Part shown: positions 1-42,723 of the stretch, piece by piece
Position numbering within the stretch: the stretch's first letter is position 1
Layout of the letters: each line of letters opens with the position of its first letter
Origin: Opitutales bacterium
GTDB lineage: Bacteria; Verrucomicrobiota; Verrucomicrobiia; Opitutales; UBA953
NCBI GenBank assembly: GCA_030725715.1
Contig: JANRFG010000009.1
Location: 1 to 42,723 of the forward strand
Direction: 5' to 3'
DNA: 42,723 nucleotides
Translations under genes and position numbers: made by a program
The notes under the pieces: generated by a model
Told to the model about the DNA's origin: nothing
Database searches by the model: none
What the model saw: the letters and a program-made list of their open reading frames with translations, nothing else

Positions 1-6
1 CCGTCC

Positions 7-1719
7 TCACGAGGCGTAGCGCCAGTCAAGGATCTCGGCCTGCGGGGTCCGGCGTCCTTGCCATCGGTTCCACTGGAGCTTGACGGCCATCTCCACGGGC
101 TTGCCCAGCTCGGGAATGCGGTCGGCCATGCGCCAGGCCACGAAGTTCAGACGACGGCCGCCGCTGAGCGGGACCTGGTGCCGGAAATTACCGTCGCCGA
201 AGGGCAAGGGCGGACGGTCGAAGACGAAGCCCTTGAAACCGAAGACCGGCTCGGCGTTGCCTTCGCCGTAAGGCTGCAGCAGGTCGAGGTCGTCGAGCAG
301 CTGATCGGTGACGTCCGCCGGGCGGAGCCAGTGGGCGATGTCGATATCCCGTCCGTCCGCCTGCGCGACCCCGGCCAGGCGCTGGGCCTGGATGGCCTCA
401 TTGAAGCGGGCCCGGAAAGCCTCGACGGCGGCGATGTCGAGCGAGACGCCGACGGCCATCGGGTGTCCGCCGTAGGTCTTGAGCAGGTCGGCGCAGGCGC
501 CGAGGGCTTCGACGAGATTGGTGCCCGGCACGCTGCGGCCGGAGCCCTTGGCGCTCTCCCCTTCCTTGCCGAGGACGATCACCGGACGGTCCAGCGCGCG
601 GCAGATCTTGCCGGCGGCGATCCCCACGACTCCCGGATGCCAGTCGCCGTGGACGACATAACCGGCGAGCTCGCCCATCGCCTTGGCCTGGGCCATGGCT
701 TCTTCGGTGACCTTCTTGTCGATCTCCTGGCGTTCACGGTTGATGGCGTCGAGCTGCGCGGCGTCGCGGAGGCAGTCATCCGGGTCGTCCGAAAGCAGGA
801 GGCGCAACGGCAACGAGGCGTCGGCCAGACGGCCGCTCGCGTTGATGCGGGGGCCGATGCGGTAAGAGACGTCGACGGAAGACAGCACGCCGCCGGGCTC
901 CATGCCGCTGACGGCGATGAGGGCGCGCAGCCCCTGCCGGCGGGCTTCGCCGAGGGCCTTGAGACCGTGGGCCGCGAGGATGCGGTTCTCCGTGCGCAGC
1001 GGGACGAGGTCGGCGATGGTACCGAGCGCCGCCAGATCGAGGTAGTCCTTCACCGCGATCGAAGTGCCGCGTTCGTCGCCGGCGAGGCGCAGGACCTTCA
1101 GCACGCCGTGGACCAGCTTGAAGACCAGTCCAGCCGTGCAGAGCGTCTGCCACGGGGCGTCCTCGGCGTCGTTGACGCGCGGGTTGACGAGCGTGCAGCT
1201 GACGCGGGATTCCTTGGCGACGTGGTGGTCGACCACGATGACGTCGACGCCTTCGGCCCGGAGGCGTTCGACCTCGGGCTTGGAATTGGTGCCGCAGTCG
1301 AGCGCGACGAAGAGCTGCGGCTTCGCCTCGGCGAGGACGCGTTCGAGCGCGGCCATCGAGAGGCCGTAGCCCTCTTCCAGGCGGCGCGGGACGAAATACT
1401 CCGGCGTGGCGCCGAGGCGGCGGAGGAAGTGGACGAGCATCGCGGTGCTCGAGACCCCGTCGACGTCGTAGTCGCCGAGGATGGCGATCCGCTCGCCCTT
1501 GGCGGCGGCGGCGACGAGACGCTCGGCGGCTTCGCGGAGGCCGCCGACCGCGAACGGATCGGAGACATGGGCGAGCTGCGGGCGGAGATGACGCTCCGCC
1601 TCGGCCTCGTCCGGGAAGGAACGGGCGAGGACGGCGGCCAGGGGTTCGCTAACCCCCAGCGAAGCCGCGATGCGACGGGCGAGCCCGGCGTCCGCGGCCC
1701 GGTGAGACCATGCGGCCAT
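7..1719 (-). CDS. recJ: Single-stranded-DNA-specific exonuclease RecJ
   Basis: RecJ degrades single-stranded DNA 5' to 3' in recombination and mismatch or excision repair in the cytoplasm. The 570-residue product shows the DHH-family metal motifs in order: DYDVDG near residue 80, LDCGT near 140 and VVDHH near 163. These are followed by the DHHA1 region (GGHPMAVG) and a C-terminal OB-like part, so the length fits the family and the gene is complete. The ATG lies 14 nt after the secDF stop, so it is probably the last gene of a yajC-secDF-recJ transcript. The gap reads CCCCCTTCCT before ATG, with no Shine-Dalgarno sequence. Confidence 0.95.
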   Translation of the reverse strand: MAAWSHRAADAGLARRIAASLGVSEPLAAVLARSFPDEAEAERHLRPQLAHVSDPFAVGGLREAAERLVAAAAKGERIAILGDYDVDGVSSTAMLVHFLRRLGATPEYFVPRRLEEGYGLSMAALERVLAEAKPQLFVALDCGTNSKPEVERLRAEGVDVIVVDHHVAKESRVSCTLVNPRVNDAEDAPWQTLCTAGLVFKLVHGVLKVLRLAGDERGTSIAVKDYLDLAALGTIADLVPLRTENRILAAHGLKALGEARRQGLRALIAVSGMEPGGVLSSVDVSYRIGPRINASGRLADASLPLRLLLSDDPDDCLRDAAQLDAINRERQEIDKKVTEEAMAQAKAMGELAGYVVHGDWHPGVVGIAAGKICRALDRPVIVLGKEGESAKGSGRSVPGTNLVEALGACADLLKTYGGHPMAVGVSLDIAAVEAFRARFNEAIQAQRLAGVAQADGRDIDIAHWLRPADVTDQLLDDLDLLQPYGEGNAEPVFGFKGFVFDRPPLPFGDGNFRHQVPLSGGRRLNFVAWRMADRIPELGKPVEMAVKLQWNRWQGRRTPQAEILDWRYAS

Positions 1720-1733
1720 AGGAAGGGGGCGCC

Positions 1734-4451: not shown

Positions 4452-4482
4452 AGTGTCAGGGTGGGCTTAGGGGTGGATGACC

Positions 4483-4809: not shown

Positions 4810-4910
4810 TGTTCGTATTGTTTGGAAAGGGGTGGGTTGAAGGTCTGGAAATGCGATAATGTGACAAAAAGGCAAGCCCCGGCATCCCCGATTGGCTTTG
4901 ATTACCCCCT

Positions 4911-4941
4911 AGGAGGTGTCACTGTGAATAACTCTCCATGA
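4911..4941 (+). promoter_or_regulatory. kup leader: AGGAGG, five-codon frame and TGTGAATAACT element
   Basis: AGGAGG at 4911-4916 is the only consensus Shine-Dalgarno sequence near an annotated gene, but it lies 21 nt from the kup ATG. It is 6 nt from a GTG at 4923 that opens a five-codon frame (GTG AAT AAC TCT CCA TGA). The TGA of that frame overlaps the kup ATG as ATGA. Alternatively, TGTGAATAACT (4923-4933) is an extended -10 element; the same 11-mer lies before lpxC. Either reading is inference. Confidence 0.35.
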
Positions 4942-6972: not shown

Positions 6973-7485
6973 TCACTTCGGCGCGGTGACCTTGAAGACG
7001 AACGCCTGCTTGCACGGGTGGTTCTCTTCGTCGGCCATCTCACGCGGGGTCGTGATCACGCAGACGCCGCCGAACTGCTCCCACGGCAGGAGGTCCGACC
7101 AACCCAGCAAGGTGATGGTCGAACCAGGGGCCGGACGGAGCACCCGCGAACGCACCTGCGGACCGGGCCAGCCGTAGCTGATGAGATACGTCGCGCGGCC
7201 GTCGGCCGAACGCGTGAAGCGGAAGGCCCCTTCCGCCGGCACGGGACCGGGACGGACTTCCAGGACCGCCTCGCCGTTCACGTCCAGCCACTCCTCGACA
7301 TAGATGAACTGGGCCGTGCTGGCCTCGTCCACGGGGTCGAGGTTATGGTAACGTCCGGCGATGCTCCGCCCGGCGGCGGCGTCCTCGATCAGTTCGACGA
7401 CGCGGTCTTCGGCCGTCGGCGGCAGCATGGAGCACCCTCCGAGGAGAAGCGCGAGACCCAAGGCTGCGAGGAGTCGGGCAGCCAT
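6973..7485 (-). CDS. Putative lipoprotein of unknown function
   Basis: I do not recognise a family. The 170-residue product has a lipoprotein signal: hydrophobic LLAALGLALLL followed by the lipobox LGGC, with the lipidated Cys at residue 18, so envelope attachment is expected. The mature part is soluble and contains four Trp and two further Cys residues (FGGVCVITTP and NHPCKQAF), which might form a disulfide. It begins 11 nt after the carA stop, so it is probably read through from carA. Its 3' end nearly abuts the convergent kup gene. Confidence 0.75.
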   Translation of the reverse strand: MAARLLAALGLALLLGGCSMLPPTAEDRVVELIEDAAAGRSIAGRYHNLDPVDEASTAQFIYVEEWLDVNGEAVLEVRPGPVPAEGAFRFTRSADGRATYLISYGWPGPQVRSRVLRPAPGSTITLLGWSDLLPWEQFGGVCVITTPREMADEENHPCKQAFVFKVTAPK

Positions 7486-11126: not shown

Positions 11127-11528
11127 TCAGCCCCGCGACCGGGGAGGCGGCACCGGCACCTCGCCGGCCCGGATTAGCCCGACTTCGTCTGTCGGCCAGG
11201 CATGCGCCCGACCCTGGAAATCTTGCGCCCCGATGACCGCGAGGACGTCGACGGAGGTGTCCGCCTTGGCCTTCGCCTTCGCCGCATCTTCCTTCGCCAG
11301 GGGCTGTTGCTCGCTCTGCTTACGTCCGTCCTGGGCGACCTTACACATCGCGCAAGGAGCATCCGCCAAGGCCTTGGTCACGGCGGCGCCGACGGAGCGC
11401 TGGGCGGCGTTCTCGACCGACATCTTCGTCCAGGCGACGACCTGCAGGAGGTCCCACGACAGACCGGACGCAGCGAGCCACGCCACGAGGGCGAGCCAGG
11501 CGAAGGGCCGTTGGAAGCGTCGGAACAC
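11127..11528 (-). CDS. Small membrane-anchored or exported protein with PCAMCK motif
   Basis: I do not recognise the family with certainty. The 133-residue product starts with GTG and has a hydrophobic N-terminal segment (FAWLALVAWLAASGLSW) that could be a signal peptide or anchor. It then has a short motif PCAMCK near residues 58-63, an Ala/Lys-rich charged linker and a C-terminus ending in VPVPPPRSRG. The CXXC-like pair suggests redox or metal binding. Its position directly before a gene whose product begins with CPCGC suggests a joint function; this is inference. The start is uncertain because no ribosome-binding site supports it; an alternative Met at residue 36 would lose the hydrophobic segment. 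Confidence 0.6.
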   Translation of the reverse strand: MFRRFQRPFAWLALVAWLAASGLSWDLLQVVAWTKMSVENAAQRSVGAAVTKALADAPCAMCKVAQDGRKQSEQQPLAKEDAAKAKAKADTSVDVLAVIGAQDFQGRAHAWPTDEVGLIRAGEVPVPPPRSRG

Positions 11529-11617
11529 GCCAGAGGATTAGCCGCTCTGAGCAACGGCTTTCAAATCAATTAAGGTTCCGACCACGGGTCTTAAGCCCGC
11601 TTATCAGGATAATAAGC

Positions 11618-13274: not shown

Positions 13275-14264
13275 TCAGGAGGCGAAGCCCTTGGGCCGGG
13301 CGAGGTGCCAATGGCATGCCGTCAGCACGATGCTGTCGAGCGTATCATAACGAGGGACCCAGCCGAGTTCGCGACGGACCTTGGCGGCATCGGCGTAAAG
13401 CGCGGGCGGATCGCCCTCGCGGCGCTCGGCCAACTCGTGCGGGACCGGGCGGCCGAGGATGCGCGCCACGCTGGCGATGACCTCTTTGACCGAGTACGGA
13501 GCGCCCGTGCCGAGATTATAGAACAAGGCCTGGCCGGGCTGAGCCAGCTTGGGCAGGACGTCCAGATGGGCGCGGGAAAGGTCGTCCACATGCACGTAGT
13601 CGCGCAGGCAGGTGCCGTCAGGCGTCGGGTAATCCGTACCGAAGACCTTGAGCGGCGGGCGGCGGCCTAGGGCGGCGGCGATGGCCAGCGGGATCAGGTG
13701 CGTCTCCGGCGAGTGGTCTTCGCCGATGGCGCCGTCCGGCGAAGCCCCGGCGGCGTTGAAATAACGGAAGGCCGCGAAGCTCAGCCCGTGCGAGCCGGCG
13801 AGCTCGCGCAGGCGCCGCTCTACGGCCAGTTTCGTGGCGCCGTAAGGATTGATCGGCTGCTGCGGCAGGTCTTCCGTCATCGGCATCCGCTCCGGGACGC
13901 CGTAAGTCGCGCAGGTGCTCGAGAAGACGAGCTTCTTGACGCCTTCGGCGAGCATCGACTGAAGCAGCCCTTCGGTGCGGACCACGTTGTTCTCGTGGTA
14001 ACGCTCCGGCCGCTGGACGGATTCGCCGACGTTCGTGAAAGCCGCGAAATCGATGACCACCTCGGCACGAGTCTCGCGTAGGGCGGCGCGGACGGCGGCC
14101 TGATCGCCCATGTCGGCACGATAAAGCTTCACCCCGGCCGGGACGGACTCCGCATGGCCGTAGGAAAGGTCGTCCAACACGGCGACCACGTGCCCGGCGG
14201 CCGCGGCCTGCCGGACGCAATGGCTGCCGATGTAGCCGGCACCGCCCACCACGAGCACGTTCAT
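13275..14264 (-). CDS. galE: UDP-glucose 4-epimerase GalE
   Basis: GalE interconverts UDP-glucose and UDP-galactose, supplying galactosyl donors for surface polysaccharide. The 329-residue extended SDR protein has the NAD motif GGAGYIG (7-13), the Ser in FSSTCATYG and the catalytic YGATK (Tyr141, Lys145). It also has RYFNAAG and RDYVHVDDL, so the epimerase assignment is firm. No other gal genes are present; it leads an operon with the HIT gene, ybeY and queC. Its promoter lies 6 nt before the ATG. Confidence 0.95.
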   Translation of the reverse strand: MNVLVVGGAGYIGSHCVRQAAAAGHVVAVLDDLSYGHAESVPAGVKLYRADMGDQAAVRAALRETRAEVVIDFAAFTNVGESVQRPERYHENNVVRTEGLLQSMLAEGVKKLVFSSTCATYGVPERMPMTEDLPQQPINPYGATKLAVERRLRELAGSHGLSFAAFRYFNAAGASPDGAIGEDHSPETHLIPLAIAAALGRRPPLKVFGTDYPTPDGTCLRDYVHVDDLSRAHLDVLPKLAQPGQALFYNLGTGAPYSVKEVIASVARILGRPVPHELAERREGDPPALYADAAKVRRELGWVPRYDTLDSIVLTACHWHLARPKGFAS

Positions 14265-14270
14265 GACGGC

Positions 14271-14299
14271 AGATAACCCCCGCCGACGGGCCTAGGCAA
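14271..14299 (-). promoter_or_regulatory. galE promoter, -10 six nt before ATG
   Basis: On the minus strand: TTGCCT (14299-14294), a 17-nt spacer, TTATCT (14276-14271), 6 nt, ATG at 14264. With a normal start 6-7 nt after the -10, transcription begins at the start codon itself, so the galE mRNA should be leaderless. Confidence 0.65.
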
Positions 14300-14330: not shown

Positions 14331-14359
14331 TTGCCAGCGCCGTCCCGAACCTCCTATCT
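14331..14359 (+). promoter_or_regulatory. leuS promoter, -10 ten nt before ATG
   Basis: TTGCCA (14331-14336), a 17-nt spacer, CTATCT (14354-14359), 10 nt, ATG at 14370. It is divergent from the galE promoter with the same architecture. The predicted leader is about 3-4 nt. Confidence 0.6.
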
Positions 14360-14369: not shown

Positions 14370-16979
14370 ATGGACACTTCGGAAACAAAACCCGGCAGCT
14401 ACGATTTCCCCGCCTTCGAACAGAAGTGGCAGGCCGCCTGGAAAGCCGGCGCCACCTTCCGCACCGAGCCCATCTCCTGCGGCAAGCCGAAGTACTACGT
14501 CCTGGACATGTTCCCCTACCCCTCCGGCGCCGGCCTGCACATCGGCCACCCGGAAGGCTACACGGCTTCGGACATCCTCGCCCGCTATAAGAAGGCCAAC
14601 GGCTTCAACGTCCTCCACCCGATGGGCTGGGATGCTTTCGGCCTGCCCGCCGAGCAGCATGCGATCGCCACCGGCGAGCACCCCGCCGTCCAGACCAAGC
14701 GCAACATCGACAACTTCCGCCGCCAGCTGCAGATGCTCGGCTTCGCCATCGACTGGGACCGCGAGCTCTCCACGACCGACGAGAACTACTTCCGCTGGAC
14801 GCAGTGGATCTTCCTCAAGCTCTTCCGCCACGGCCTCGCCTTCGTCTCCGAGAAGCCCGTCTGGTTCTGCCCTGCCCTCGGCACCGTCCTTGCGAACGAG
14901 GAAGTCCTGAACACCCCGGAAGGCCCGCGCTCTGACCGCGGTAACCATCCGGTCGAACGTCGCCCGATCCGCCAGTGGGTCCTGCGCATCACCGCCTACG
15001 CCGACAAGCTCATCGAAGGCCTCGACCACGTCGACTGGCCCGATTCCACCAAGCGCCTCCAGAAGAACTGGATCGGCAAGTCCGAGGGCGCCGAAGTCAC
15101 CTTCAAGCTCGACGGCCATGCCGACACCCTGACCGTCTTCACGACCCGTCCGGACACCCTTTACGGCGCGACCTACATGGTCATCGCGCCCGAGCACCCG
15201 CTCATCGGCAAGCTCACCACCGCCGCCCAGAAGGACGCCGTCGAAAGCTACGTCGCCGCGGTCCGCAACAAGACCGACCTCGAGCGCACCGACCTCGCCG
15301 ACAAGAAGAAGACCGGCGTGTTCACCGGCGCCTACGCCATCAACCCGGTCAACGGCGCCAAGATCCCCGTCTGGACCGCCGACTACGTGCTCATCACCTA
15401 CGGCACCGGCGCGATCATGGCCGTGCCGGCGCACGACGAACGCGACTGGGAATTCGCCAAGGAATTCAAGCTCCCCATCATCCAGGTCGTCGGCTCCAAG
15501 AAAGCCGTCGACGTCAACGAGCAGCCTTGGACCGAAGACGGCCCGATGGTGAACTCCGGTCCGTTCGACGGCCTCTCCGCCGGCGAGACCAAGAAGAAGA
15601 TCACCGCCGACCTCGCCGCCAAGGGCCAGGGCAAGCTCGCCGTGAACTTCAAGCTGCGCGACTGGCTCTTCTCGCGTCAGCGCTACTGGGGCGAGCCCTT
15701 CCCGCTCCTCTGGGTCTCCCGCGAAGACTACGCCAAGATCCCGGCCGACTCCGAAGTGCGCGAGTTCCTCCCGAAGGAGCCCGTCACCTGCCAGCTTAAC
15801 GGCGTCGAAGTCTGCGCCGTGCCGCTGACGTCGAAGCAGCTCCCGCTGACTCTGCCGCAGGTCAAGTCCTACCAGCCCTCCCCGACCGGCGATTCGCCGC
15901 TCTCGAAAGAACCCGAATGGACCGAAGTCTGGTATGACGTCGCCTCCGGCGCCACCGTCCCCCAGTCGAAGCCGCAGCCCGGCCCGCTCTGGATCAAGGC
16001 CTCGCGCGAGACGAACACGATGCCCCAGTGGGCCGGCTCCTGCTGGTATTACCTGCGCTACATCGACCCCAAGAACGCCGAGGCCTTGGCCTCGAAAGCC
16101 GACCTGGCATACTGGGGCTGCCCGGACTTCTACATCGGCGGCGCCGAGCACGCCGTGCTCCACCTCCTGTACGCGCGCTTCTGGCACCGCTTCCTCCACG
16201 AGATCGGCGTCCTGCCGACCGCCGAACCGTTCAAGAAGCTCTTCCACCAGGGCCTCATCATGGGCGAGGACGGCGAGAAGATGTCCAAGAGCCGCGGCAA
16301 CGTCGTGAACCCCGACGCGATCGTCAAGGACCACGGCGCCGACGCCCTCCGCATGTACCTGATGTTCCTCGGACCGCTCGAGGCCTCCAAGCCTTGGAAC
16401 TCCGACGGCATCATCGGCATCACCCGTTTCCTCAAGCGCCTCTGGCGCCTGGCGGTCGATGAGAACACCGGCAAGGCTTCCGCCAAGCTGAGCGCCGACG
16501 GCGCCGAATCCGAGGAACTCGTCCGCGAGCTCCATCGCACCATTCAGAAGGTCGAGAAGGACATCGAGACCCTGCAGTTCAACACCGCCATCTCGCAGAT
16601 GATGATCCTCATGAACGTCGCCGAGAAGTCGCCGGCCCTGCGCCGCGCGACCGTCGAGGACTTCGTGCGCCTCGCCGCCCCGTTCGCCCCGCACGCGTGC
16701 GAGGAGATCTGGCAGCGCCTCGGTCACAAGGAAAGCATCACCGCCGCCGGCTGGCCCAAGCTCGACGTCTCCAAGCTCGTCGAGACCACCGTCGAGGTCG
16801 TGTTCCAGGTCAACGGCAAGGTCCGCGCCACCGCCAAGGTCGCCAAGGACATCTCCAAGGACGCCCTGCTCGCCCTCGCCAAAGCCGACGCCGACGTGAT
16901 CAAGTTCACCGACGGCAAGCCCGTCGTGAAGGAGATCGTCGTCCCGGGCAAGCTGGTGAACATCGTCGTCGCGGGCTGA
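14370..16979 (+). CDS. leuS: Leucyl-tRNA synthetase
   Basis: LeuRS charges tRNA-Leu in the cytoplasm. The 869-residue class I enzyme has the HIGH motif (57-60) in [16 protein letters not shown]. It has the CP1 editing domain with [20 protein letters not shown] and [15 protein letters not shown], and KMSKS at 637-641. The C-terminal anticodon-binding region ends in KLVNIVVAG. The ATG at 14370 ([13 protein letters not shown]) was chosen because the predicted promoter occupies the in-frame TTG upstream. It is monocistronic, ending at a strong bidirectional terminator. Its codon use is strongly C-biased, and a long open frame on the other strand is an artefact of this. Confidence 0.97.
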
Positions 16980-18512: not shown

Positions 18513-19499
18513 ATGACGAAGCCGCGCATCCTCCTCACGACCACTTCCTTCCAGGACACCCCCGGAGAACACCATAAGATGCTCGCCGAAACGGGCTGGG
18601 AAGTGGTCACCGCGCGCGGCCCCCTCAACGAAGCGGACACGCTCGCGCTGATGGGTGAGTTCGACGGCTACATCTGCGGCGACGACCTGATCACCGCCGC
18701 GGTGATCGAGAAAGCCCTTCCCCGCCTCAAGGTCGTCTCGAAATACGGCATCGGCGTCGACAAGATCGACGTGAAGACCCTCACCGCCAAGGGCATCCCC
18801 CTGCTCTTCACCCCCGGCGTCAATCATACGACCGTCGCCGAGCACACCTTCCTCCTCCTGCTCGCCCTGGAGAAGAACTTCTATTTCCACACCGACTCCA
18901 CCCGCTCCGGCGGCTGGAAGCGCAAGACGGGCCATGAGCTGCTCGACAAGGCGATCGGCATCATCGGCATGGGCCGCATCGGCAAGGAAGTCGCCATCCG
19001 CGCCCGCGCCTTCGGCATGAAGGTCGTCGGCTTCGACCTCTATTGGGACGACAAGTTCGCCGCCCAATACGACGTGCGCCGCGCCGCCACGATGGACGAT
19101 GTCTTCGCCGTCTCCGACTACCTCTCGCTGCACACCAACCTGACGCCCGAGACGCGCGACCTGATCCGCGCCGAGAACATCGCCAAGATGAAGAAGGGCG
19201 TGCTCATCCTGAACTGCGCCCGCGGCGAGATCGTCCACACCGACGACATCGCGGCCGCGCTGAAGTCCGGCCAGGTCGGCGGCTACGGCACCGACGTGCT
19301 CGACGAAGAACCGCCGCGCGCCGACCACCCGCTCACCAAGCTCCCGAACTGCGTCGTCACCCCGCACATCGGTTCCCGCACCGCCGAGAGCGTGCAGCGC
19401 CAGGCCGTCGCCGCGGTCACGAACCTCATCCGCGCGATGCACGGCGAAAAACCGCTGGCCCAGATCAACCCCGAAGTCGCGGTGAAGAAGGTCGTCTAA
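18513..19499 (+). CDS. D-2-hydroxyacid dehydrogenase, phosphoglycerate dehydrogenase-like
   Basis: The 328-residue product belongs to the NAD-dependent D-isomer-specific 2-hydroxyacid dehydrogenase family. It has the Rossmann motif GMGRIGKE near residue 152 and the catalytic Arg in LNCARGEIVHTDD. Glu is in DEEPP, and His is in TPHIGSRTAES. Such enzymes interconvert a 2-oxo acid and its D-2-hydroxy acid; the substrate is unclear, but a sugar-acid intermediate fits the operon. The ATG at 18513 was chosen; a TTG upstream in frame adds residues unlike the family. It is first in a five-gene operon and 22 nt from the next gene. Confidence 0.88.
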   Translation: MTKPRILLTTTSFQDTPGEHHKMLAETGWEVVTARGPLNEADTLALMGEFDGYICGDDLITAAVIEKALPRLKVVSKYGIGVDKIDVKTLTAKGIPLLFTPGVNHTTVAEHTFLLLLALEKNFYFHTDSTRSGGWKRKTGHELLDKAIGIIGMGRIGKEVAIRARAFGMKVVGFDLYWDDKFAAQYDVRRAATMDDVFAVSDYLSLHTNLTPETRDLIRAENIAKMKKGVLILNCARGEIVHTDDIAAALKSGQVGGYGTDVLDEEPPRADHPLTKLPNCVVTPHIGSRTAESVQRQAVAAVTNLIRAMHGEKPLAQINPEVAVKKVV

Positions 19500-19521
19500 T
19501 CTCCCCGCCGAAACCTTACCC

Positions 19522-20616: not shown

Positions 20617-20651
20617 GCCCTCCTCACTTCTAAACCCCAACTCCTCCTACC

Positions 20652-21749: not shown

Positions 21750-21750
21750 A

Positions 21751-21779
21751 CCCCTACCCCCACCCCTATCCCTATCCTC
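21751..21779 (+). repeat. C-rich telomere-like repeat, copy 1
   Basis: CCCCTA, CCCCCA, CCCCTAT, CCCTAT and CCTC units fill the whole gap between the kinase stop and the SDR start. The opposite strand has four or more runs of three to five G and could form a G-quadruplex. Related copies lie at 29171-29206 and 36851-36886. Confidence 0.6.
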
Positions 21780-22550: not shown

Positions 22551-22565
22551 CTAAGAACGACGACG

Positions 22566-23972
22566 ATGGCCTTCATGGACAATGACTTCATCCTCTCGAC
22601 CGGGACGGCGCAGAAGCTCTACCACGGCGTGGCGAAGGACCAGCCGATCGTCGATTACCACTGCCACCTCAGCCCGAAGGACATCGCCGACGACCGTCGC
22701 TTCGAGGACCTCACGGCCATCTGGCTCGCGGGCGACCACTACAAGTGGCGCGCGATGCGTGCCAACGGCGTCAGCGAAGACCTGATCACGGGCGACAAGT
22801 CCACCTCCCGCGAGAAGTTCCAGGCCTGGGCCGAGACGGTGCCGTCCACGCTCCGTAACCCGCTCTTCCACTGGACCCACCTCGAACTGCGCCGCCACTT
22901 CGGCATCCAGGACGTCCTCGAAGGCGCCACGGCCCAGAAGATCTGGGACGAGGCCAACCGCCAGCTCAAGCATGGCGACCTCACGGCCCGCGGCATCCTC
23001 AAGCTGATGAAGGTCCGCGTCGTCGGCACCACCGACGACCCCGCCGACTCGCTCGACCTGCACCACCAGATCGCGAAGTCCGGCTTCGAGACCAAGGTCG
23101 TCCCGACCTACCGCCCCGACGCGTGCCTCAAGGTCCGCACCCCGGACCGCGTGCAGGCCTGGGCCAAGCGCCTCGCCGCCGCGACCGGCAAGGGCGCCGA
23201 CACCTTCGCCGGCCTGATCGCCGGCCTCGACCAGCGCCACGACGACTTCGCCGCCGCGGGCTGCCGCGCCTCCGACCACGGCCTCGATTACCTGCCGGAC
23301 GCCGCCTGCACCGAAGCCGAAGCCAAGGCCATCTGGGAGCACGCCATGGCCGGCAAGGCCGCCACGCTCGAGGAAGCCGAGAAGTTCACGGCCTTCATCA
23401 TGCTGCACGTCGGCCGCCTCAACCACGCCAAGGGCTGGGCCACCCAGCTTCACCTCGGCGCGGTCCGCGACCCGAACCTCGGCCTGCTCAAGCGCCTCGG
23501 CTCCGACGCGGGCTGCGACACGATCGGCGACTTCCGCCAGGGTCCCGGACTCATCCGCTGGTTCGGCACCCTCTCGGGCGAGAACGCCCTCGGGAAGACG
23601 ATCCTCTACAATCTCAACCCCGCCGACACCGCCCTCTTCGCCTGCCTCCCGGGCTCGTTCCAGGACGGCGTGACGCCGGGCAAGATCCAGTATGGCTCGG
23701 GCTGGTGGTTCCTCGACCAAGAACGCGGCATGCGCGACCAGATGAACGCGCTGTCCGACCTCGGCCTGCTCAGCCGTTTCATCGGCATGATCACCGACTC
23801 GCGCTCCTTCCTCTCGTACCCGCGCCACGAATACTTCCGCCGCATCCTGTGCGATCTCGTCGGACAGGATGTCGAGTCGGGCCGCATCCCGGACCGCCAG
23901 GACTGGAACGAACGCCTGATCGCCGACGTCTGCTACGGCAACGCCAGCCAGTACTTCGGTTTCAAGAGCTAA
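22566..23972 (+). CDS. uxaC: Uronate isomerase UxaC
   Basis: UxaC isomerises D-glucuronate to D-fructuronate and D-galacturonate to D-tagaturonate. The 468-residue length and the sequence fit the family throughout: metal-binding VDYHCHLSP (His32, His34), FHWTHLELRRHFGI, LDLHHQIA, VVPTYRPDA, MLHVGRLNHAKGWATQLHLGA and a C-terminal DSRSFLSYPRHEYFRRILC split over a loop. It is the last gene of the operon, 15 nt after the SDR. An alternative start three codons in (MDNDF) is equally possible. Mannonate dehydratase (uxuA) and KDPG aldolase, needed to finish the pathway, are not in the window. Confidence 0.96.
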   Translation: MAFMDNDFILSTGTAQKLYHGVAKDQPIVDYHCHLSPKDIADDRRFEDLTAIWLAGDHYKWRAMRANGVSEDLITGDKSTSREKFQAWAETVPSTLRNPLFHWTHLELRRHFGIQDVLEGATAQKIWDEANRQLKHGDLTARGILKLMKVRVVGTTDDPADSLDLHHQIAKSGFETKVVPTYRPDACLKVRTPDRVQAWAKRLAAATGKGADTFAGLIAGLDQRHDDFAAAGCRASDHGLDYLPDAACTEAEAKAIWEHAMAGKAATLEEAEKFTAFIMLHVGRLNHAKGWATQLHLGAVRDPNLGLLKRLGSDAGCDTIGDFRQGPGLIRWFGTLSGENALGKTILYNLNPADTALFACLPGSFQDGVTPGKIQYGSGWWFLDQERGMRDQMNALSDLGLLSRFIGMITDSRSFLSYPRHEYFRRILCDLVGQDVESGRIPDRQDWNERLIADVCYGNASQYFGFKS

Positions 23973-27421: not shown

Positions 27422-27895
27422 TCAGAGGACGACGACCGTGACGCGGCGGCGGCCGGCCTGACGGGCGACCAGTCCCTGCACGGTGTCGACGGCTTCGTCG
27501 TAGGCCGCGCGCCAGCGCGTCGAACGGGCGCGGGTGCCGGCGAGATACTGGTCCTGCAGGCCGACGACCCAGAAGAGCACGTCGGCGGATTCACCCGTCG
27601 TGGCGAGCGCGTCGGCGACGCGTTCGCCGGCCCAGAGGGCGTCGAACGGTTCGGCACGATGGTCGAGCACGGCGACGGACGGCGTCGCGCGGTCCGGCGA
27701 AAGCAGGCGGAAGATCTGGGCGGCCGCGGCGGCGAGATCGGAAGCGTTCAGACGCGGATCGGTCTCGTCATCGGCCTCGAAGACCCGGAGCACGGCGTCG
27801 ACGTCGGTGCGCAGCTGGGGAGCGGTGCCCACCATCGAAGCCAGCAGCGCGTTGAGCGTGCGGAGGCGGATCGACTTAGGCAGCGCGGCGGTCAC
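27422..27895 (-). CDS. Conserved-position hypothetical protein (not NusB)
   Basis: I do not recognise this 157-residue protein. It has the position where nusB often sits (after nrdR) but lacks NusB motifs. Visible features are an N-terminal basic helix (SIRLRTLNALLASMVG), an Asp/Ala-rich middle (FEADDETDPRLNASDLAAAAAQ), a hydrophobic VLFWVVGLQDQYL segment and a basic Val-rich end (GRRRVTVVVL). The GTG start overlaps the nrdR stop as GTGA. It is the one start in the window with a Shine-Dalgarno-like GGGAGG at a usable distance, although that sequence also encodes nrdR residues. It is predicted to be soluble. Confidence 0.7.
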   Translation of the reverse strand: MTAALPKSIRLRTLNALLASMVGTAPQLRTDVDAVLRVFEADDETDPRLNASDLAAAAAQIFRLLSPDRATPSVAVLDHRAEPFDALWAGERVADALATTGESADVLFWVVGLQDQYLAGTRARSTRWRAAYDEAVDTVQGLVARQAGRRRVTVVVL

Positions 27896-28356
27896 TTCGC
27901 CTTTCCTCCCTTGCGGAGCTGGTCGATGGCCTTGGCGAGTTCGTCGATGTCGCGGAACTCACGGTAGACGCTGGCGAAACGGACGTAGGCGATCTGGTCG
28001 ACGGCCTGCAGACGGGCCATGATCTCCTCGCCGATGGCGCTGGAGGGGACCTCGTCGCCGAACTTCGCCTGCAGGTTCTCGACGATCTCCGAGATCATCA
28101 GGTTGATGCGCTCGAGCTCGATCGGACGCTTATCGGTGGCCTTGCGGACGCCGGAGGCGATCTTGCCGATGTCGAACTCCTCGCGGGCGCCGTTGCGCTT
28201 CACGACGACCATGCCTTCGCGGACGATCTCCTCGATCGTGCTGAAGCGATGATCGCACGCCAGGCACTCGCGGCGGCGGCGGATGGAATGGTTGCCCTTC
28301 CCGAGGCGGGTCTCCAGGACCTTCGTATCCTCGTGATTGCAGCGGGGGCAGAACAT
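27892..28356 (-). CDS. nrdR: Transcriptional repressor NrdR
   Basis: NrdR senses ATP/dATP and represses ribonucleotide reductase genes. The 154-residue product has the N-terminal zinc ribbon with Cys3, Cys6, Cys31 and Cys34 (FCPRC and CLACDHRF), and RRRREC. The ATP-cone domain has VVKRNGAREEFDIGKI. The C-terminus shows AYVRFASVYREFRD. Length is standard. It starts 3 nt after the trpG stop. No nrd genes or obvious NrdR boxes are present in the window. Confidence 0.97.
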   Translation of the reverse strand: MFCPRCNHEDTKVLETRLGKGNHSIRRRRECLACDHRFSTIEEIVREGMVVVKRNGAREEFDIGKIASGVRKATDKRPIELERINLMISEIVENLQAKFGDEVPSSAIGEEIMARLQAVDQIAYVRFASVYREFRDIDELAKAIDQLRKGGKAK

Positions 28357-28359: not shown

Positions 28360-28923
<564 letters not shown>

Positions 28924-28929: not shown

Positions 28930-28958
28930 ACGATTTGCCCGGCGCCTCGAAGTGTCAA
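28930..28958 (-). promoter_or_regulatory. trpG operon promoter, -10 six nt before GTG
   Basis: On the minus strand: consensus TTGACA (28958-28953), a 17-nt spacer, AATCGT (28935-28930), 6 nt, GTG at 28923. The transcription start would fall on the GTG, giving a leaderless message. The -10 is poor, but the -35 and the spacing are canonical. Confidence 0.5.
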
Positions 28959-31419: not shown

Positions 31420-31447
31420 TTGCGCCGTCGGCCGGCTTGCCTAGTTT
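31420..31447 (+). promoter_or_regulatory. Possible promoter of the secreted hydrolase gene
   Basis: TTGCGC (31420-31425), a 16-nt spacer, TAGTTT (31442-31447), 7 nt, ATG at 31455. The short -10 to ATG distance matches the pattern at galE and trpG. Confidence 0.4.
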
Positions 31448-31454: not shown

Positions 31455-32261
31455 ATGAAAGCCCTCCTACCCGCCTTTATCGCGATCACGAGCTCCTTCG
31501 GTGCGCTTTCCGTGGCCGAGCCGATGAAAATCGAGGTGAGGCGCCTTCCCGAGTCAGCGGCGGCTACGACTACGTTCCTCAATCCCGAATACGTGGTCGC
31601 CTCCCCGGCCGCCGCTCAGGCGACCGACAAGACGCCGCTGCTCATCTTCCTCCACGGCGCTGGTGAACGAGGTACCGACCTGACCCAACTGAAGTCGGTG
31701 CCGCCCATCCGGCACTTCAGGCAGCAGACCGAACAGCCCTTCCTCATCGTCGTGCCGCAGTGCGCCCCAGACAAGGCGGGCAAGAAAGACGAATGGCAGG
31801 CCGCGGACCTGGAAGTACTCTTCAAACAGCTCGAGAAGGACCAGCCGTTCGACAAGTCGCGCGTCTATCTCATCGGCTATAGCATGGGTGGCTATGGCAC
31901 CTGGCTCTGGGGCTCCGCTCACCCCGAGCGCTTCGCCGGCCTTGCCCCTCACGCTGGCGGCCTAGGCTCCGGCGGCCCCCGGGCCGTGTCGCCCGATCTC
32001 ACCGGGTGGGCTAAGCGCCTCGCGCCGTTGCCGATTTGGATCTTCCACGGCGACCGGGATAACGTCGTGCCGCCCGAACGCTCCGAGCGCATGCACACCC
32101 TACTCAAGTCCGCCGGTGCCAAGCAGGTCCGTCTGACGATACTGGCAGGCCAAGGCCACGGCATCGGCGGTAACCTAAGTAACCCCGAGCTCTACGCGTG
32201 GCTGCTCCGCCACCGACGCCAGGGAAACCAAGTCGTCGAAACCCCTCTGCCCATAAAATGA
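31455..32261 (+). CDS. Secreted alpha/beta hydrolase (esterase/phospholipase-like)
   Basis: The 268-residue product has a signal peptide (MKALLPAFIAITSSFGALSVA). An alpha/beta-hydrolase domain follows with the oxyanion segment LIFLHGAGERGTD and the nucleophile Ser in GYSMGGYGTW. The acid residue is in FHGDRDNVVP, and His is in GQGHGIGG. It resembles the carboxylesterase/LpqC-like group that often accompanies carbohydrate esterase functions in this phylum; the substrate is unknown. Its TGA overlaps the ATG of the next gene (ATGA). Confidence 0.87.
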   Translation: MKALLPAFIAITSSFGALSVAEPMKIEVRRLPESAAATTTFLNPEYVVASPAAAQATDKTPLLIFLHGAGERGTDLTQLKSVPPIRHFRQQTEQPFLIVVPQCAPDKAGKKDEWQAADLEVLFKQLEKDQPFDKSRVYLIGYSMGGYGTWLWGSAHPERFAGLAPHAGGLGSGGPRAVSPDLTGWAKRLAPLPIWIFHGDRDNVVPPERSERMHTLLKSAGAKQVRLTILAGQGHGIGGNLSNPELYAWLLRHRRQGNQVVETPLPIK

Positions 32262-36724: not shown

Positions 36725-36802
36725 GGTGGTTGTAGCTCAGTTGGTTAGAGCACTGGTTTGTGGTACCAGGGGTCGGGGGTTCAAGTCCCCTCAATCACCC
36801 CA
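36725..36802 (+). tRNA. tRNA-His (GTG anticodon), CCA encoded
   Basis: The cloverleaf reads GTGGTTG acceptor, D arm GCTCAGTTGGTTAGAGC, anticodon stem CTGGT/ACCAG around loop TTGTGGT (anticodon GTG) and T arm GGGGGTTCAAGTCCCC. The acceptor 3' strand is CAATCAC, then C73 and encoded CCA. The extra G at 36725 pairs with C73, the G-1 typical of tRNA-His. Confidence 0.97.
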
Positions 36803-36886: not shown

Positions 36887-36895
36887 CTGGGCGTC

Positions 36896-37393
36896 TCAGC
36901 CGTGCGCGCCCTTGGACTTGAAGTAGGCCTCGATGGCGTCGCGGATGGCCTTCTCGAACTCATCGTCCTTGGCCTTGATCTCGGCGTCGATCGTCGGCTC
37001 ACCGACCTGGGCGCCGCGGCGGAACCACTTCTCGCCACTGAAGGAGAAGTGCTGGCCGTAGTAGCTGGCGTAGGTGACGTGGAATTTATAACCCGACGGA
37101 TAGTTGGTCAGGAACACCGAAGCCTTCGCCACCGGGTAGTCAGGCTTCACCTTGAGCAAGGCCTTGCGCACTTCGGCGGTCACCTCCTTCGAGTCGCACT
37201 TGATCTTGTTATCCATGAAGCGCGCGTCGTCGAACTCGACGTCCATCGGGAAGAACACGCCGGACTTCATGCCGTTGAACGCGGTACCGGGGACGCCGAA
37301 GTAAAGCAAGGCGGCCGACACGAGGGTCACGGCGATCAGCGAGGCCATGACGGCCATCGGATGCATCGGCTTCTTCAGTTCGACGGAACACAT
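36896..37393 (-). CDS. Single-pass membrane protein of unknown function
   Basis: I do not recognise this 165-residue protein. It has a short cytoplasmic N-terminus, one membrane helix at about residues 13-36 (VMASLIAVTLVSAALLYFGV) and a soluble, presumably periplasmic domain. That domain has many charged residues and a repeated acidic/basic helix at the end (EIKAKDDEFEKAIRDAIEAYFKSKG). The start ATG at 37393 was preferred over 37429 because a promoter lies between them; a further ATG nine codons in is possible. It follows the giant cytochrome c protein on the same strand but has its own promoter. Confidence 0.75.
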   Translation of the reverse strand: MCSVELKKPMHPMAVMASLIAVTLVSAALLYFGVPGTAFNGMKSGVFFPMDVEFDDARFMDNKIKCDSKEVTAEVRKALLKVKPDYPVAKASVFLTNYPSGYKFHVTYASYYGQHFSFSGEKWFRRGAQVGEPTIDAEIKAKDDEFEKAIRDAIEAYFKSKGAHG

Positions 37394-37401
37394 GGGCGAA
37401 A

Positions 37402-37429
37402 GAGATAGATAGCCCTCGCCCCGAATCAA
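37402..37429 (-). promoter_or_regulatory. Promoter of the small membrane protein gene
   Basis: On the minus strand: TTGATT (37429-37424), a 16-nt spacer, TATCTC (37407-37402), 8 nt, ATG at 37393. The -10 shares TATCT with galE, leuS and queD. The -35 lies inside the upstream terminator hairpin. Confidence 0.5.
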
Positions 37430-37446
37430 TCAGATTGGGGTGAGGG
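37413..37446 (-). terminator. Probable terminator of the cytochrome c protein gene
   Basis: Arms CCCTCGCCCCGAATC (37413-37427) and GATTGGGGTGAGGG (37433-37446) pair with one G-T pair and one bulge. On the minus strand a moderately T-rich CTATCTATCTCTTT follows. Confidence 0.6.
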
Positions 37447-37454
37447 CCGTCGGC

Positions 37455-40382
37455 TTACTTCAGCGTCTGGAGGTAGGCCTTCACGTCCTCGAGCTCCTGC
37501 GGCTTGAGGATCAGGCCCATCGGGGGCATCGGGGAGACGCCGAGCTTCTCGAAGCCCTTCGCGAGGACCTTGTTGGGCTCGACCAGGGATTCGTGGATGT
37601 AGGTGGGCGTCGCGCGGGTGGCGATACCGTCAAGCGCGGGTCCGATGGCGCTGCCCTTCCCTCCCACCATGTGACAGATGGCGCAAGCGGCCGTGGGATG
37701 TTTCCAGAAGATGTCCGCTCCGCGGGCTGGCACGCCGGCGGTCACCGCAGCCTCGCCGGCGAGGGTCAGCTCGGAGAGGCGGACGTCGTCATAGAAGGAA
37801 TCACCGGTGGCGACGTGCAGCAGGTTGATGCTGGCCTTGGTACGCTTGCCGCTGTTGAAGACGACCTCGACCTCGGTCCAGTCGGAGTCACGGGCGGTGA
37901 CCTTCTCGGTCTCGGCGCGGCCGATATGGTCGTTGAGGCTGGCCTTGCCGCGCATCGCATGGGTCTTGATCCAGGCGCTGAGACGGTAGTCGGTGTTCGG
38001 CTTGAGTTCGACGTCGGCGAAGAAGCTCGTGTCGGCCTCGCCACGGGTGATGGCGCGCATGGCGTGCTTGCCGGAGCGCACGTTCTTCGGGTCGATGACG
38101 ATGCCCCAGTTGGCGTCCTTGTTGCCCGCGCGCTGGCCGTAGTCGCGGCGCTTCCAACCGAGCGGGGTCTTCTTGTCGTCAGCGACTTCTTCGAAGCCAG
38201 GATTAGGCAGCAGGTTCGGGCCTTCGACGTAAGTCGCGGTCTTGTGCTTCTTGGCGAGCAGGCGGGAAGCCTCGTTGAGCCATTCGTCGGACTTCACCGC
38301 CGGATCGGCGGCGAGCTGACGCACGAGCGTCTGGACTTCCGGGGAAGTCGGGAAATCGGCGAGCTTCACGAGGGCGGCCAGTCGGGTGGCCGGGGCCTTG
38401 TCGGCCACGACGCCCGCTCCGTAGAAGAGCTTCTGGGCGGCGGCATCGGCGCCGAGGGCGCGAATGGCGTTGCGACGGAGCTCGGGCGAAGCGGACAGCA
38501 GCGCGGCCTGATGGGTGGCGGCATCGAGTTCGCCGAGGCCGTGAAGGGACCAAAGGGCGTGGATAGCTGCGACGTCGGCGGAGGACTTAGTCACGAGCTC
38601 GCGGAGGGCCGGACTGAGGTCCTGCTTCTTGCCTTCGACGATCAGGCGCTGGGCGCGGAGACGGCCATACTGCGTGCCACCGGAGAGACCGGCGAGGAGT
38701 TCGGCGGAGGATTCACCCTGCGCAGCCTTGGCGACGCTGCCGGACTTATCCCAGACGATGCGATAGATACGGCCGCGGGCATGGTCACGCAGGTCGTTCT
38801 CGTGCGCGCCGCCGACGCCGGTCTTGGCGTCGTAGCCGCCGCGGTTCACGCTCGGGGTCGGGTTGTGCTGGATGATGAAGTTCTGCCAGTCGGCGAACCA
38901 GATGGCGCCGTCGGGGCCGACTTCGGCGAAGACCGGGGACATCCATTCGTCGGAGCTGGCGACGAGGCTGTAGCCATCCTTGGCGACGTAGCCGGCGCCG
39001 GCGGGTTGGACGTCCATGAGGCCGATGAGCTTCATCGTCGGCTCGCAGACCATCGCCTTGCCCTGCAGTCGCTCAGGCAGCTGCGGAGAATAGATGAAGG
39101 TCGCGCCGGCCGCGGCGGTCCAGCCGCCCATCACGTCGACCTGACGGAAATTCGGGGTGATCGTGTGCGCCTTGTCGACGACGTTGATCTTCTTGGCCGA
39201 CATGCCGCGCGAACCCTTGGCCCAGGCCGTGGCGGGGATGCCGCCGAAGAAGATCGGGGCGTTGTTGGCCGTACCACCGAAGGAGTCGCCGGCGGCGTTG
39301 GCGCCGTAACCCCAGGTGTTGTTGGAGAACTGGTGGAGGAACTCGAGCTTGGCGCCGTCCGCGCTGAAGCGGTAGCTGCCCATCGCGAAGTTTTTCTTCT
39401 CACCGCCGACTTCGCCGGTGAAGCCGCTGTAGCCGACCGCGCCGCGGAGCCAGTTGTCGTAACCGTAGGACAGGCTGCTCGCCTGCGCGTGGGTATCGCG
39501 GATGCCCCAGCCGGTCATGATGACCTGACGGACGTCGGCCTTGTCGTCGCCGTCGGTGTCCTTGAGGAAGACGAAGTTCGGGGACTGGGCGACGATCACG
39601 CCGCCGTTGGCGAAGACGAGGCTCGTCGGGATGTTGAGCTTGTCGGCGAAGACCGTGAACTTGTCCGCCTTGCCGTCGCCGTCAGTGTCTTCGCAGATCT
39701 TGATGGAGTCATTACCCTTCTGCTGGTCTTCCATGACGCCGTGCGGGTAGTCGCGGGTCTCGGCGACCCAGAGGCGGCCACGGGCGTCCCAGGCGAACGC
39801 GATCGGCTTCATGATGTCGGGCTCGGCGGCGAAGAGCACCAGCTTCATGTCGGCCGGGACCTGGGTGCGCTCCATGCTGCCCTTGACCGAATAAGGCTTC
39901 TGGAAAGTCAGCGGCTCAGGGCGCTTCTCGTAATTGGCGACGTTGCCGTTCTTCTCGCGGACCTCGGGCTCACGCTGGGCGAGGAAAGCCTGCCAGGCGG
40001 ACTTACGGTCGGCCGACAGCGAGGCTTCGAGCTGCGGACGGAAACCCGCGGCATTCGTGTCGGCCTTGATGACGAGTACCGGCACCAGCGCGCCGGAAGG
40101 CAGCTTGATGACGTTGTTCAGGGCCGGCGAACCATCGGCCTTCGGCTTCACCGCCAAGGCGTCGTAGCGCTCAAGCGTCGCGGCGTCGGGAGTCGCGCCC
40201 GTCGCGTAGTCGAACCAGATCGCATCGCGACCGAGCTCGGCCATCAGCGAGTGGAGCGGGCCGACGGCGGACTGCTCTTCGCCCGAGGCGTCGAGATAGA
40301 GGATGCGAATCGGACCGGAGGTCGGCGCGGCGGAGGCGAGGACGGCGAAGCAGGCCGACAGGATGGCGACGAAGGGGCGCAT
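37455..40382 (-). CDS. Secreted PVC-type propeller protein with HEAT-like, carbohydrate-binding-like and cytochrome c domains
   Basis: The 975-residue product has a signal peptide (MRPFVAILSACFAVLASAA). A short ThuA-like remnant follows (about 22-100; IRILYLDASG, TLERYDALAV). The beta-propeller (about 180-545) is typical of the Pirellula/Verrucomicrobium-type 'membrane-bound dehydrogenase' family (LFAAEPDIMKPIAFAWDARG, TDGDGKADKFTVFADKLNIPTSL). A HEAT-like helical part (about 560-715), a CBM4/9-like jelly roll (NLLPNPGFEEV, about 725-880) and a cytochrome c domain complete it. The last has the haem motif CAICH near 897 and a candidate Met ligand in PMPPM near 954. It is probably a periplasmic oxidoreductase for a sugar or related substrate; the substrate is unknown. 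The ATG at 40382 was chosen because the signal peptide starts there. Confidence 0.85.
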   Translation of the reverse strand: MRPFVAILSACFAVLASAAPTSGPIRILYLDASGEEQSAVGPLHSLMAELGRDAIWFDYATGATPDAATLERYDALAVKPKADGSPALNNVIKLPSGALVPVLVIKADTNAAGFRPQLEASLSADRKSAWQAFLAQREPEVREKNGNVANYEKRPEPLTFQKPYSVKGSMERTQVPADMKLVLFAAEPDIMKPIAFAWDARGRLWVAETRDYPHGVMEDQQKGNDSIKICEDTDGDGKADKFTVFADKLNIPTSLVFANGGVIVAQSPNFVFLKDTDGDDKADVRQVIMTGWGIRDTHAQASSLSYGYDNWLRGAVGYSGFTGEVGGEKKNFAMGSYRFSADGAKLEFLHQFSNNTWGYGANAAGDSFGGTANNAPIFFGGIPATAWAKGSRGMSAKKINVVDKAHTITPNFRQVDVMGGWTAAAGATFIYSPQLPERLQGKAMVCEPTMKLIGLMDVQPAGAGYVAKDGYSLVASSDEWMSPVFAEVGPDGAIWFADWQNFIIQHNPTPSVNRGGYDAKTGVGGAHENDLRDHARGRIYRIVWDKSGSVAKAAQGESSAELLAGLSGGTQYGRLRAQRLIVEGKKQDLSPALRELVTKSSADVAAIHALWSLHGLGELDAATHQAALLSASPELRRNAIRALGADAAAQKLFYGAGVVADKAPATRLAALVKLADFPTSPEVQTLVRQLAADPAVKSDEWLNEASRLLAKKHKTATYVEGPNLLPNPGFEEVADDKKTPLGWKRRDYGQRAGNKDANWGIVIDPKNVRSGKHAMRAITRGEADTSFFADVELKPNTDYRLSAWIKTHAMRGKASLNDHIGRAETEKVTARDSDWTEVEVVFNSGKRTKASINLLHVATGDSFYDDVRLSELTLAGEAAVTAGVPARGADIFWKHPTAACAICHMVGGKGSAIGPALDGIATRATPTYIHESLVEPNKVLAKGFEKLGVSPMPPMGLILKPQELEDVKAYLQTLK

Positions 40383-40520
40383 AGGGTATGCAATAAGCCA
40401 AAGCCCCCAAGGTTCTGAAGCAACCCGCAGAATCGTCAAAAAGTGGGCAATCCCGACCGCGGCAGCGGCTGGGGTGTCGTAAAAATGAAAGGCCCTGGCT
40501 GGCCGGCGGCCCACTCGGCC

Positions 40521-40548
40521 AAAAAAACGGCGCCCAGATGGGCGCCGT
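40521..40548 (-). terminator. groEL terminator
   Basis: A perfect 9-bp stem ACGGCGCCC/GGGCGCCGT with an AGAT loop is followed on minus by TTTTTTT (40527-40521). Confidence 0.92.
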
Positions 40549-40574
40549 GTTCAGGGAGCGATCGCTCAGCGACC

Positions 40575-42200
<1,626 letters not shown>

Positions 42201-42230
42201 GTTGGTGTGGTTTGAGAGTTGGGGGTTAGA

Positions 42231-42536
42231 TTATTCGACGACGGCGAGGATCTCTTCTTCGCGGAGGAGGAGGTAGATCTCTTCGTTGAGCTTCACTTCC
42301 GTGCCGGCGTACTTGCCGACGAGGACCTTGTCGCCGACCTTGACGTTGAAGGCGACCTTCTTGCCGTCCTTGTCGAGGGCGCCGGTGCCGAGGGCGATGA
42401 CCTTGGCTTCTTGCGGCTTCTCCTTGGCGGAGTCCGGGATGATGATGCCGCCCTTGATTTCTTCAGCCTCTTCGATGCGCTGGAGGAGGACGCGATCGCC
42501 GAGGGGCTTGACGCTGGGTTTGGTGTTTTTGGCCAT
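42231..42536 (-). CDS. groES: 10 kDa co-chaperonin GroES
   Basis: GroES caps the GroEL ring. The 101-residue product has [23 protein letters not shown] split around the mobile loop, then [19 protein letters not shown], and [15 protein letters not shown]. The ATG at 42536 ([14 protein letters not shown]) was chosen over an in-frame ATG at 42623 because it fits the family. The leader just before ATG is ACCCAAACACCCACC. No CIRCE element (TTAGCACTC-N9-GAGTGCTAA) is found upstream. Confidence 0.97.
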
Positions 42537-42642
42537 GGTGGGTGTTTGGGTAGAGGTTAGTCCTTGCGGACGGGAGTGGGGTTGCAGAACAGATGCCAAA
42601 GCCGTTTCGCCGAGGTTTAGCAAACGATTTAGGGGTTTTTCT

Positions 42643-42723
42643 GGGGTCCGACCCCCTCTCGACCCCGCAAACGGGTCATTGTTCCCCCTTTTGCTCGGGT
42701 CAGGGTGTCACACGGGTGAGACA
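42643..42723. promoter_or_regulatory. Possible groES control region with GACCC boxes and a terminal dyad
   Basis: GGGGTC-C-GACCCC (42643-42655), GACCCC (42661-42666) and GGGTCA at 42673 and 42697 (24 nt apart) cluster here. An 18-bp dyad TGTCACAC-GG-GTGAGACA with one mismatched pair ends the window at 42706-42723. Whether these control groESL or a gene beyond the window is unknown. Confidence 0.3.

Follow-up and report, generated by a model that had tools for sequence, protein, structure and literature searches.

Promoter boxes anchored on start codons and near-complete absence of Shine-Dalgarno sequences suggest leaderless or short-leader mRNAs in an Opitutales genome

In Bacteroidia, Shine-Dalgarno (SD) sequences are absent genome-wide, while the CCUCC core of the 16S rRNA anti-SD is kept and an aromatic residue occupies the Tyr54 position of ribosomal protein bS21. 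In the ribosome of Flavobacterium johnsoniae (PDB 7jil) the anti-SD is described as sequestered by bS21, bS18 and bS6 (PMC9976891). The gene for bS21, rpsU, is typically the single gene with a strong SD in Flavobacteriales, where bS21 is autoregulated (McNutt et al. 2023, PMC9976891). The same source describes some Bacteroidia orders that also lack an SD before rpsU, as well as Chlorobia, in which SD-less mRNAs are accompanied by a strong rpsU SD and a bS21 without Tyr54 that is said to carry another C-terminal signature. SD-scarce genomes with a conserved CCUCC have been reported in the Verrucomicrobiota, namely those of Akkermansia muciniphila and Verrucomicrobia bacterium IMCC26134 (PMC10783764). 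Leaderless mRNAs have been linked with several SD-poor phyla, exemplified by Mycobacterium smegmatis, Deinococcus-Thermus and several archaea (PMC5397173); the main text of that article never uses the word Verrucomicrobia. Here we describe the translation initiation signals of a 42,723-nt contig (hereafter the window) that belongs to a 1.93-Mb metagenome-assembled genome (MAG) of Opitutales (Verrucomicrobiota), together with those of the rest of this genome and of its relatives.

The nearest relatives of the secDF gene of the window share 86 to 95% identity with it (best 80 of 258 matches) and are labelled Opitutae, Opitutus, Opitutia or Verrucomicrobia, with one Polynucleobacter label among them; many isolate labels include the name of a lake, and identities of 41 to 81% are found for further Opitutales. 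The initial annotation, made from the sequence of the window, was thus right in noting that the genome does not look like one of Bacteroidota. The record labelled Polynucleobacter (L003) was excluded from the group of close relatives. Start codons were called in a genome sample of 992 kb, including the window, with a purpose-built gene finder that relies on hexamer coding potential and start-codon penalties and uses no SD information. An SD core was defined as GGAG, GAGG or AGGA at positions -18 to -5, and five equal intervals further upstream served as controls. Genes were excluded if their upstream sequence was shorter than 60 or 120 nt or contained an N, which left 797 and 783 genes, respectively. 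Genes without a same-strand gene within 50 nt upstream were considered first in their operon.

Of the 39 genes that the gene finder called in the window, two have an SD core. One starts with the GTG at 27895 and is preceded by GGGAGG located within nrdR; the initial annotation had named this as the only SD-like site, and it keeps that place, since the second match, before gene 6973..7428, probably reflects a start truncated by the gene finder (a longer frame begins at 7485). The upstream contexts quoted in that annotation are present as described, except that CCCACCC and the ATG of secDF are separated by 7 nt, not 6. Genome-wide, SD cores precede 59 of 783 genes, as against 70, 76, 85, 80 and 104 in the five control intervals; the near-complete absence of SD sequences noticed in the window therefore extends to the whole sample, at a level slightly under chance. 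Pairing with the 16S tail is weaker close to the starts, with a mean energy of -2.75 at positions -22 to -3 as against -3.41 further upstream (797 genes). The same pipeline found SD cores in 42 of 77 genes of Escherichia coli K-12 (1 to 5 in the control intervals) and likewise in 42 of 77 genes of the Cupriavidus metallidurans megaplasmid, which has 64% GC (6 to 8 in the control intervals; Fisher p = 8e-23 for the genome studied here versus C. metallidurans). SD-dependent initiation appears to be largely abandoned in this Opitutales genome. Among its relatives, SD cores were found before 5% of genes in the named close relatives (background 9%; 217 genes), which are not an independent sample because the genes are largely the same syntenic ones, 7% in mid-distance relatives (background 7%; 277 genes), 8% in distant Opitutales (background 7%; 320 genes) and 7% in gut Opitutales (background 3%; 73 genes). 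IMCC26134 is left unclassified by NCBI; we take it to be placed in Opitutales by GTDB.

Upstream of the 458 operon-first genes, the trinucleotide TTG is concentrated at positions -36 to -34 from the start codon. Within the 450 of these genes that have 120 nt of upstream sequence, TTG occurs 107 times at these positions (16.0 expected; Poisson p 7e-51) and 142 times at -45 to -37 (47.9 expected), and it drops to 1 to 6 occurrences per position at -32 to -21. TTG is present at -48 to -33 in 258 of the 450 genes (298 sites versus 85 expected), from which transcripts are predicted to begin between 0 and about 13 nt ahead of the start codon. The peak at -36 to -34 is absent in E. coli (3 versus 2.9 expected) and C. 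metallidurans (4 versus 2.5), and 4204 decoy in-frame ATGs do not show it (29 versus 31.7). Genes with TTG at -34 (34 genes) prefer T at -7 (74%), A at -11 (56%) and C at -1 (79%); the corresponding values for TTG at -35 (46 genes) are 59%, 30% and 83%, while in the 27 genes with TTG at -36 the bases preferred in the -10 box are displaced by one position (A at -13 and T at -12, 41% each). TTG, a -10 box near -12 to -7 and C at -1 have the geometry of a sigma70 promoter, with the start codon or a neighbouring base as the predicted +1. Internal operon genes also show the TTG peak (30 versus 2.7; 333 genes). A search with TANNNT alone as a marker of leaderless genes had given a small signal in the 352 kb sampled first, where 7 of 169 first genes had the motif at -12, and was discarded; it was the larger sample, together with TTG, that made the leaderless signal clear.

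Leaderless mRNAs had been suggested in the initial annotation as one way of initiating without SD sequences, and the anchoring of promoter boxes on the start codon strongly supports them, the 5′ ends being predicted. We consider it quite probable that many transcription units lack a leader or possess only a short one of about 1 to 13 nt. Such mRNAs would have no room for an SD, because the start codon or a base near it would be the transcription start. The same annotation proposed C/A-rich leaders, which is correct only in part. Where TTG stands at -36 to -34 (107 first genes), the C at -1 (78%) precedes the predicted +1 and would thus lie outside the mRNA, so that the context is partly promoter sequence. 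C enrichment is also seen in genes without a visible TTG box, where position -1 is C in 63% of first genes (n = 192) and 58% of internal ones (n = 276), and it reaches 51% in the SD-using C. metallidurans; part of the preference is therefore due neither to promoters nor specifically to SD loss. A residual and partly general C preference is left unaccounted for by promoter boxes.

The same promoter signature was found in a second genome of the genus (G018; 11 TTG versus 2.1 expected), in the named close relatives (21 versus 4.5, for the most part in the same syntenic genes), in mid-distance relatives (19 versus 9.7), in gut Opitutales (8 versus 3.1) and in eight pooled genomes of other Opitutales families (51 versus 19.3; p = 1.6e-9). 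The leaderless lineages described in PMC5397173 likewise have promoter boxes directly upstream of the start codon; compared with them by description only, the genome studied here belongs to another phylum and combines this signature with background-level SD use.

The initiation route that we propose is as follows. Sigma70-type promoters of the form TTGnnn-N17-nAnnnT-N6 would set the start codon, or the base just before it, as the transcription start, and the C before the ATG of leaderless genes would occupy position -1 of a C/A initiator. Leaderless mRNAs would then be taken up through recognition of the 5′-terminal start codon by the ribosome together with initiator tRNA. For genes inside operons, initiation would depend on coupling or on sites that are poor in G and weakly structured. 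The anti-SD, which is retained in the order, may be hidden with a contribution from a Phe residue in the C-terminal part of bS21.

A check of the 16S rRNA 3′ end, also suggested in the initial annotation, was made in relatives. The search with RF00177 found 16S rRNA in one of 57 genomes, the own genome being among those searched. A pattern search of 372 Opitutales genomes located the 3′ end in 17 of them, while 16S rRNA is absent from the MAG and no tail was found in its genus. All 18 tails from these 17 genomes, including one from the same family (G249), read GGATCACCTCCTTT, with CCTCC intact. Since none comes from the genus itself, its own tail is presumed to be the same.

The Tyr54 position of F. 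johnsoniae bS21 (7jil_z) is occupied by Phe in all 63 Opitutales genomes compared (38/38 of the order set and 27/27 of families f17 and f7, with two genomes shared); the PDB alignment with the own bS21 ends at residue 50, and the position was counted without gaps from the KP motif. The residue is thus aromatic, as in Bacteroidia, but it is Phe and not Tyr. Outside the order it is never aromatic (0/30 Verrucomicrobiota, of which 12 belong to other orders of the class and 18 to other classes; best 30 of 115 matching genomes). For the order set, 55 of 57 genomes gave a match, and 39 loci were read and 38 counted; the uncounted one (L163 of G016), on a contig that ends just before the start codon, likewise encodes Phe. 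In f17, 17 of 19 genomes matched, and in f7, 10 of 11, the weak matches L363 and L364 being excluded.

Both of these families also resemble Bacteroidia in having an rpsU SD beyond -13 kcal/mol. All 17 rpsU genes of f17 and all 10 of f7 are preceded by such an extreme SD (dG -13.3 to -18.4), and none of the neighbouring genes reaches -10 or below (0/18 and 0/11, respectively). In G052, rpsU (-18.1) is the sole gene at or below -10 among the 43 sampled, with the next at -9.0. Unlike Bacteroidia, Opitutales have Phe for Tyr, the genus studied here lacks an rpsU SD, and occlusion of the anti-SD is our inference from these likenesses; by analogy, we regard occlusion by bS21 in this order as a plausible hypothesis and not as a result. 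The Chlorobia, which can be set beside Opitutales by description only, share SD-less mRNAs with the genome studied here. In 15 of 18 genomes of its genus, rpsU is preceded by CCCTCCAA (L223 8373..8417; relatives among L158-L172 and L224-L229), a sequence that matches the anti-SD itself and not an SD.

Scarcity of SD sequences in Verrucomicrobiota is already known. The genomes of PMC10783764 resemble the one studied here in phylum, in few SD:anti-SD interactions and in an anti-SD that is conserved, here in the tails recovered from the order; the account given there of Akkermansia and IMCC26134 is not known to include promoter geometry, an estimate of leaderless genes or a test of bS21. New are the start-anchored promoters, which would account for the missing SDs of a large share of genes, the order-specific bS21 Phe and the rpsU SD pattern of two families. 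A literature search by title and abstract, which did not cover subscription journals, found no report of leaderless mRNAs or of bS21-linked anti-SD occlusion in Opitutales.

Several observations weigh against the combination of leaderless transcription and a hidden anti-SD. A promoter-like peak is an indirect sign of transcript 5′ ends, and 192 of the 450 first genes have no TTG at -48 to -33. No significant TTG peak was obtained for the pooled distant Opitutales loci (L049-L080; 20 versus 14.9), for same-family genomes of other genera (G074, 7 versus 3.7; G128, 1 versus 1.3; G249, 3 versus 2.2) or for G038, G040 and G340 taken singly; SD use has thus been lost more widely than a leaderless signature can be detected. 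Residual SD use was found in G040 despite its bS21 Phe (14/52 genes, 27% versus 11% background) and, more weakly, in G074 (14/90, 16 versus 9%) and G249 (7/50, 14 versus 4%), while in G046 three of 73 genes lie at dG -10 or below (background 0). The rpsU SD is missing in the own genus (0/18), and only 3 of 20 genomes of the order have one that reaches -10 (likewise 3 of 20 at -13 or below), whereas in other classes, which lack the Phe, 16 of 18 genomes have one at -10 or below. Same-class genomes of group f29, which we guess to be Akkermansia-like, have no Phe and show little SD use in small samples (2/15 and 2/9). SD-like motifs are depleted inside coding sequence (ratio 0.76), which is unexpected for an SD-blind ribosome; this avoidance was discarded as evidence, being uninformative, as CCTCC (0.64), GGTGG (0.63) and GTGGG (0.59) are likewise depleted.

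An explanation compatible with the proposed route concerns the order of events: Bacteroidia-like occlusion of the anti-SD by bS21, bS18 and bS6 would have come first and made SD sequences useless, and short leaders would have followed. The confinement of the Phe to Opitutales among the Verrucomicrobiota compared and the isolated position of rpsU in G052, a pattern described for Flavobacteriales (PMC9976891), argue for it, and we give it nearly an even chance. It is opposed by the presence of Phe instead of Tyr, by the residual SD use of G040, by the distribution of rpsU SDs given above and by the control interval of G052, in which one of 43 genes also lies at -10 or below. Strong rpsU SDs occur in other classes without the Phe and therefore do not, on their own, indicate occlusion. 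Beyond the order, an SD precedes 10 of the 33 genes sampled near rpsU from other classes (background 6%), while f29 has 2 of 15 and f30 has 0 of 4; in five non-Opitutales Verrucomicrobiota the counts are 1/6, 4/6, 2/10, 1/9 and 2/9, with backgrounds of 1, 0, 1, 1.5 and 1.5 genes. These small samples offer a lead only. Somewhat below an even chance we place a fuller scenario, in which Opitutales, independently of Bacteroidota or through a shared ancestor, would have hidden the anti-SD with the aid of the bS21 Phe, some families would have kept the rpsU SD for autoregulation, and the lineage of the window would have lost it and made leaderless transcription a main route of gene expression.

Ordinary leaders, on which the start is found through weakly structured, C/A-rich sequence and bS1, could also account for SD-less initiation, with leaderless mRNAs being minor. 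The C enrichment of genes without a TTG box fits this explanation, as does the weak folding around start codons (mean minimum free energy -6.10 at -20 to +20 versus -10.91 at +151 to +190; 300 own genes), and bS1 is presumably available, because one frame of the genome has six S1 domains. The starts of the SD-using C. metallidurans are, however, also weakly folded (-6.93 versus -12.04), and the -35 and -10 boxes anchored on the start codon and the drop of TTG at -32 speak against ordinary leaders; we consider this explanation unlikely. Wrongly called starts that conceal real SDs could be suspected, given a purpose-built finder that shortened carA and ribD and placed the start of kup variously at 4938 or 4995; this is very improbable, as the same finder recovers SDs in both control genomes, the starts that it chose align the TTG peak to within about 1 nt, and groEL, groES, rpsU and rpsR of this genome, whose N-termini are well known, have no SDs. 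Equally improbable is an altered anti-SD in the genus, with mRNAs using another matching motif: no tail was recovered from the MAG or its genus, but all 18 tails recovered in the order, including that of the same family, are identical, and base frequencies upstream of the own starts show no purine-rich peak.

If the proposed combination of start-anchored promoters and a hidden anti-SD is true, SD-independent translation with a kept anti-SD extends to an order outside Bacteroidota and can be tied to a transcriptional cause, the start-anchored promoters, and to a ribosomal candidate, the bS21 Phe. Opitutales would also be a natural test of whether hiding of the anti-SD or shortening of leaders came first. 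For annotation, gene finders that score SD sequences could misplace starts in genomes of this order.

Predicted leaderless and short-leader genes of the window are summarized in Table 1. The names of the first two genes listed there are our assumptions; the epimerase is presumably galE-like. Conservation of the boxes between species was found for one gene, the amidotransferase-like one. Its TTGACA-N17-AATCGT arrangement before the GTG is kept in 29 genomes of the genus, with a varying spacer and a distance to the start codon of 35 nt (34 in two); 36 genomes have a full-length match, and of 30 of these loci 29 were used, L338 being left out since its gene lies at a contig end.

Table 1. SD-like site, predicted leaderless or short-leader genes and their candidate promoter boxes in the window
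Feature	Position	Strand	Remarks
Anthranilate synthase component II-like amidotransferase gene	28360..28923	-	start GTG at 28923, predicted leaderless
-35 box TTGACA	28953..28958	-	35 nt before the GTG of the amidotransferase-like gene
-10 box AATCGT	28930..28935	-	-12 to -7 from the GTG of the amidotransferase-like gene
NAD-dependent sugar epimerase-like gene	13275..14264	-	start ATG at 14264, predicted leaderless
-35 box TTGCCT of the galE-like gene	14294..14299	-	
-10 box TTATCT of the galE-like gene	14271..14276	-	
-35-like TTGAAA for gene 11127..11528	11559..11564	-	N16, GCTAAT; predicted leader about 2 nt
-35-like TTGATT for gene 36896..37393	37424..37429	-	N16, TATCTC; predicted leader about 2 nt
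-35-like TTGCGC for gene 31455..32261	31420..31425	+	N16, TAGTTT; predicted leader about 1 nt
-35-like TTGCCA for leuS 14370..16979	14331..14336	+	N18, TATCTG; predicted leader about 3 nt
GGGAGG	27905..27910	-	upstream of the GTG start at 27895, within the nrdR frame 27892..28356; sole SD-like site in the window judged convincing

Two further start regions attracted attention. The start region of rpsR, TTGCCC ... CTTAC ... CCC-ATG, is conserved in the own genus (L188; relatives among L178-L201; 41 genomes matched and 24 loci read of 30), which suggests a promoter and a predicted leader no longer than a few nt. A block at 4878..4937 before kup, GATTGGCTTTGATTA ... TGTGAATAACTC, is conserved in most relatives compared and probably represents either a short-leader promoter or a site of regulation. 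A five-codon upstream open reading frame before kup (4938), AGGAGGTG-N7-GTG, the AGGAGGTG of which lies inside this block, had the appearance of a regulated SD; the relatives do not conserve it, and it was therefore attributed to chance.

Among the remaining features of the window, a minus-strand gene at 37455..40514 encodes a large protein in which DUF7133, cytochrome c and CBM_4_9 domains were identified, and a single tRNA gene (36726..36799) is the only Rfam match at gathering thresholds. The region 18513..23972 contains a candidate cluster for hexuronate catabolism, the genes of which we take to be uxaC-like, kdgK-like and dehydrogenase genes; its internal genes are preceded by markedly pyrimidine-rich spacers, e.g. 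ACCCCTACCCCCACCCCTATCCCTATCCTC.

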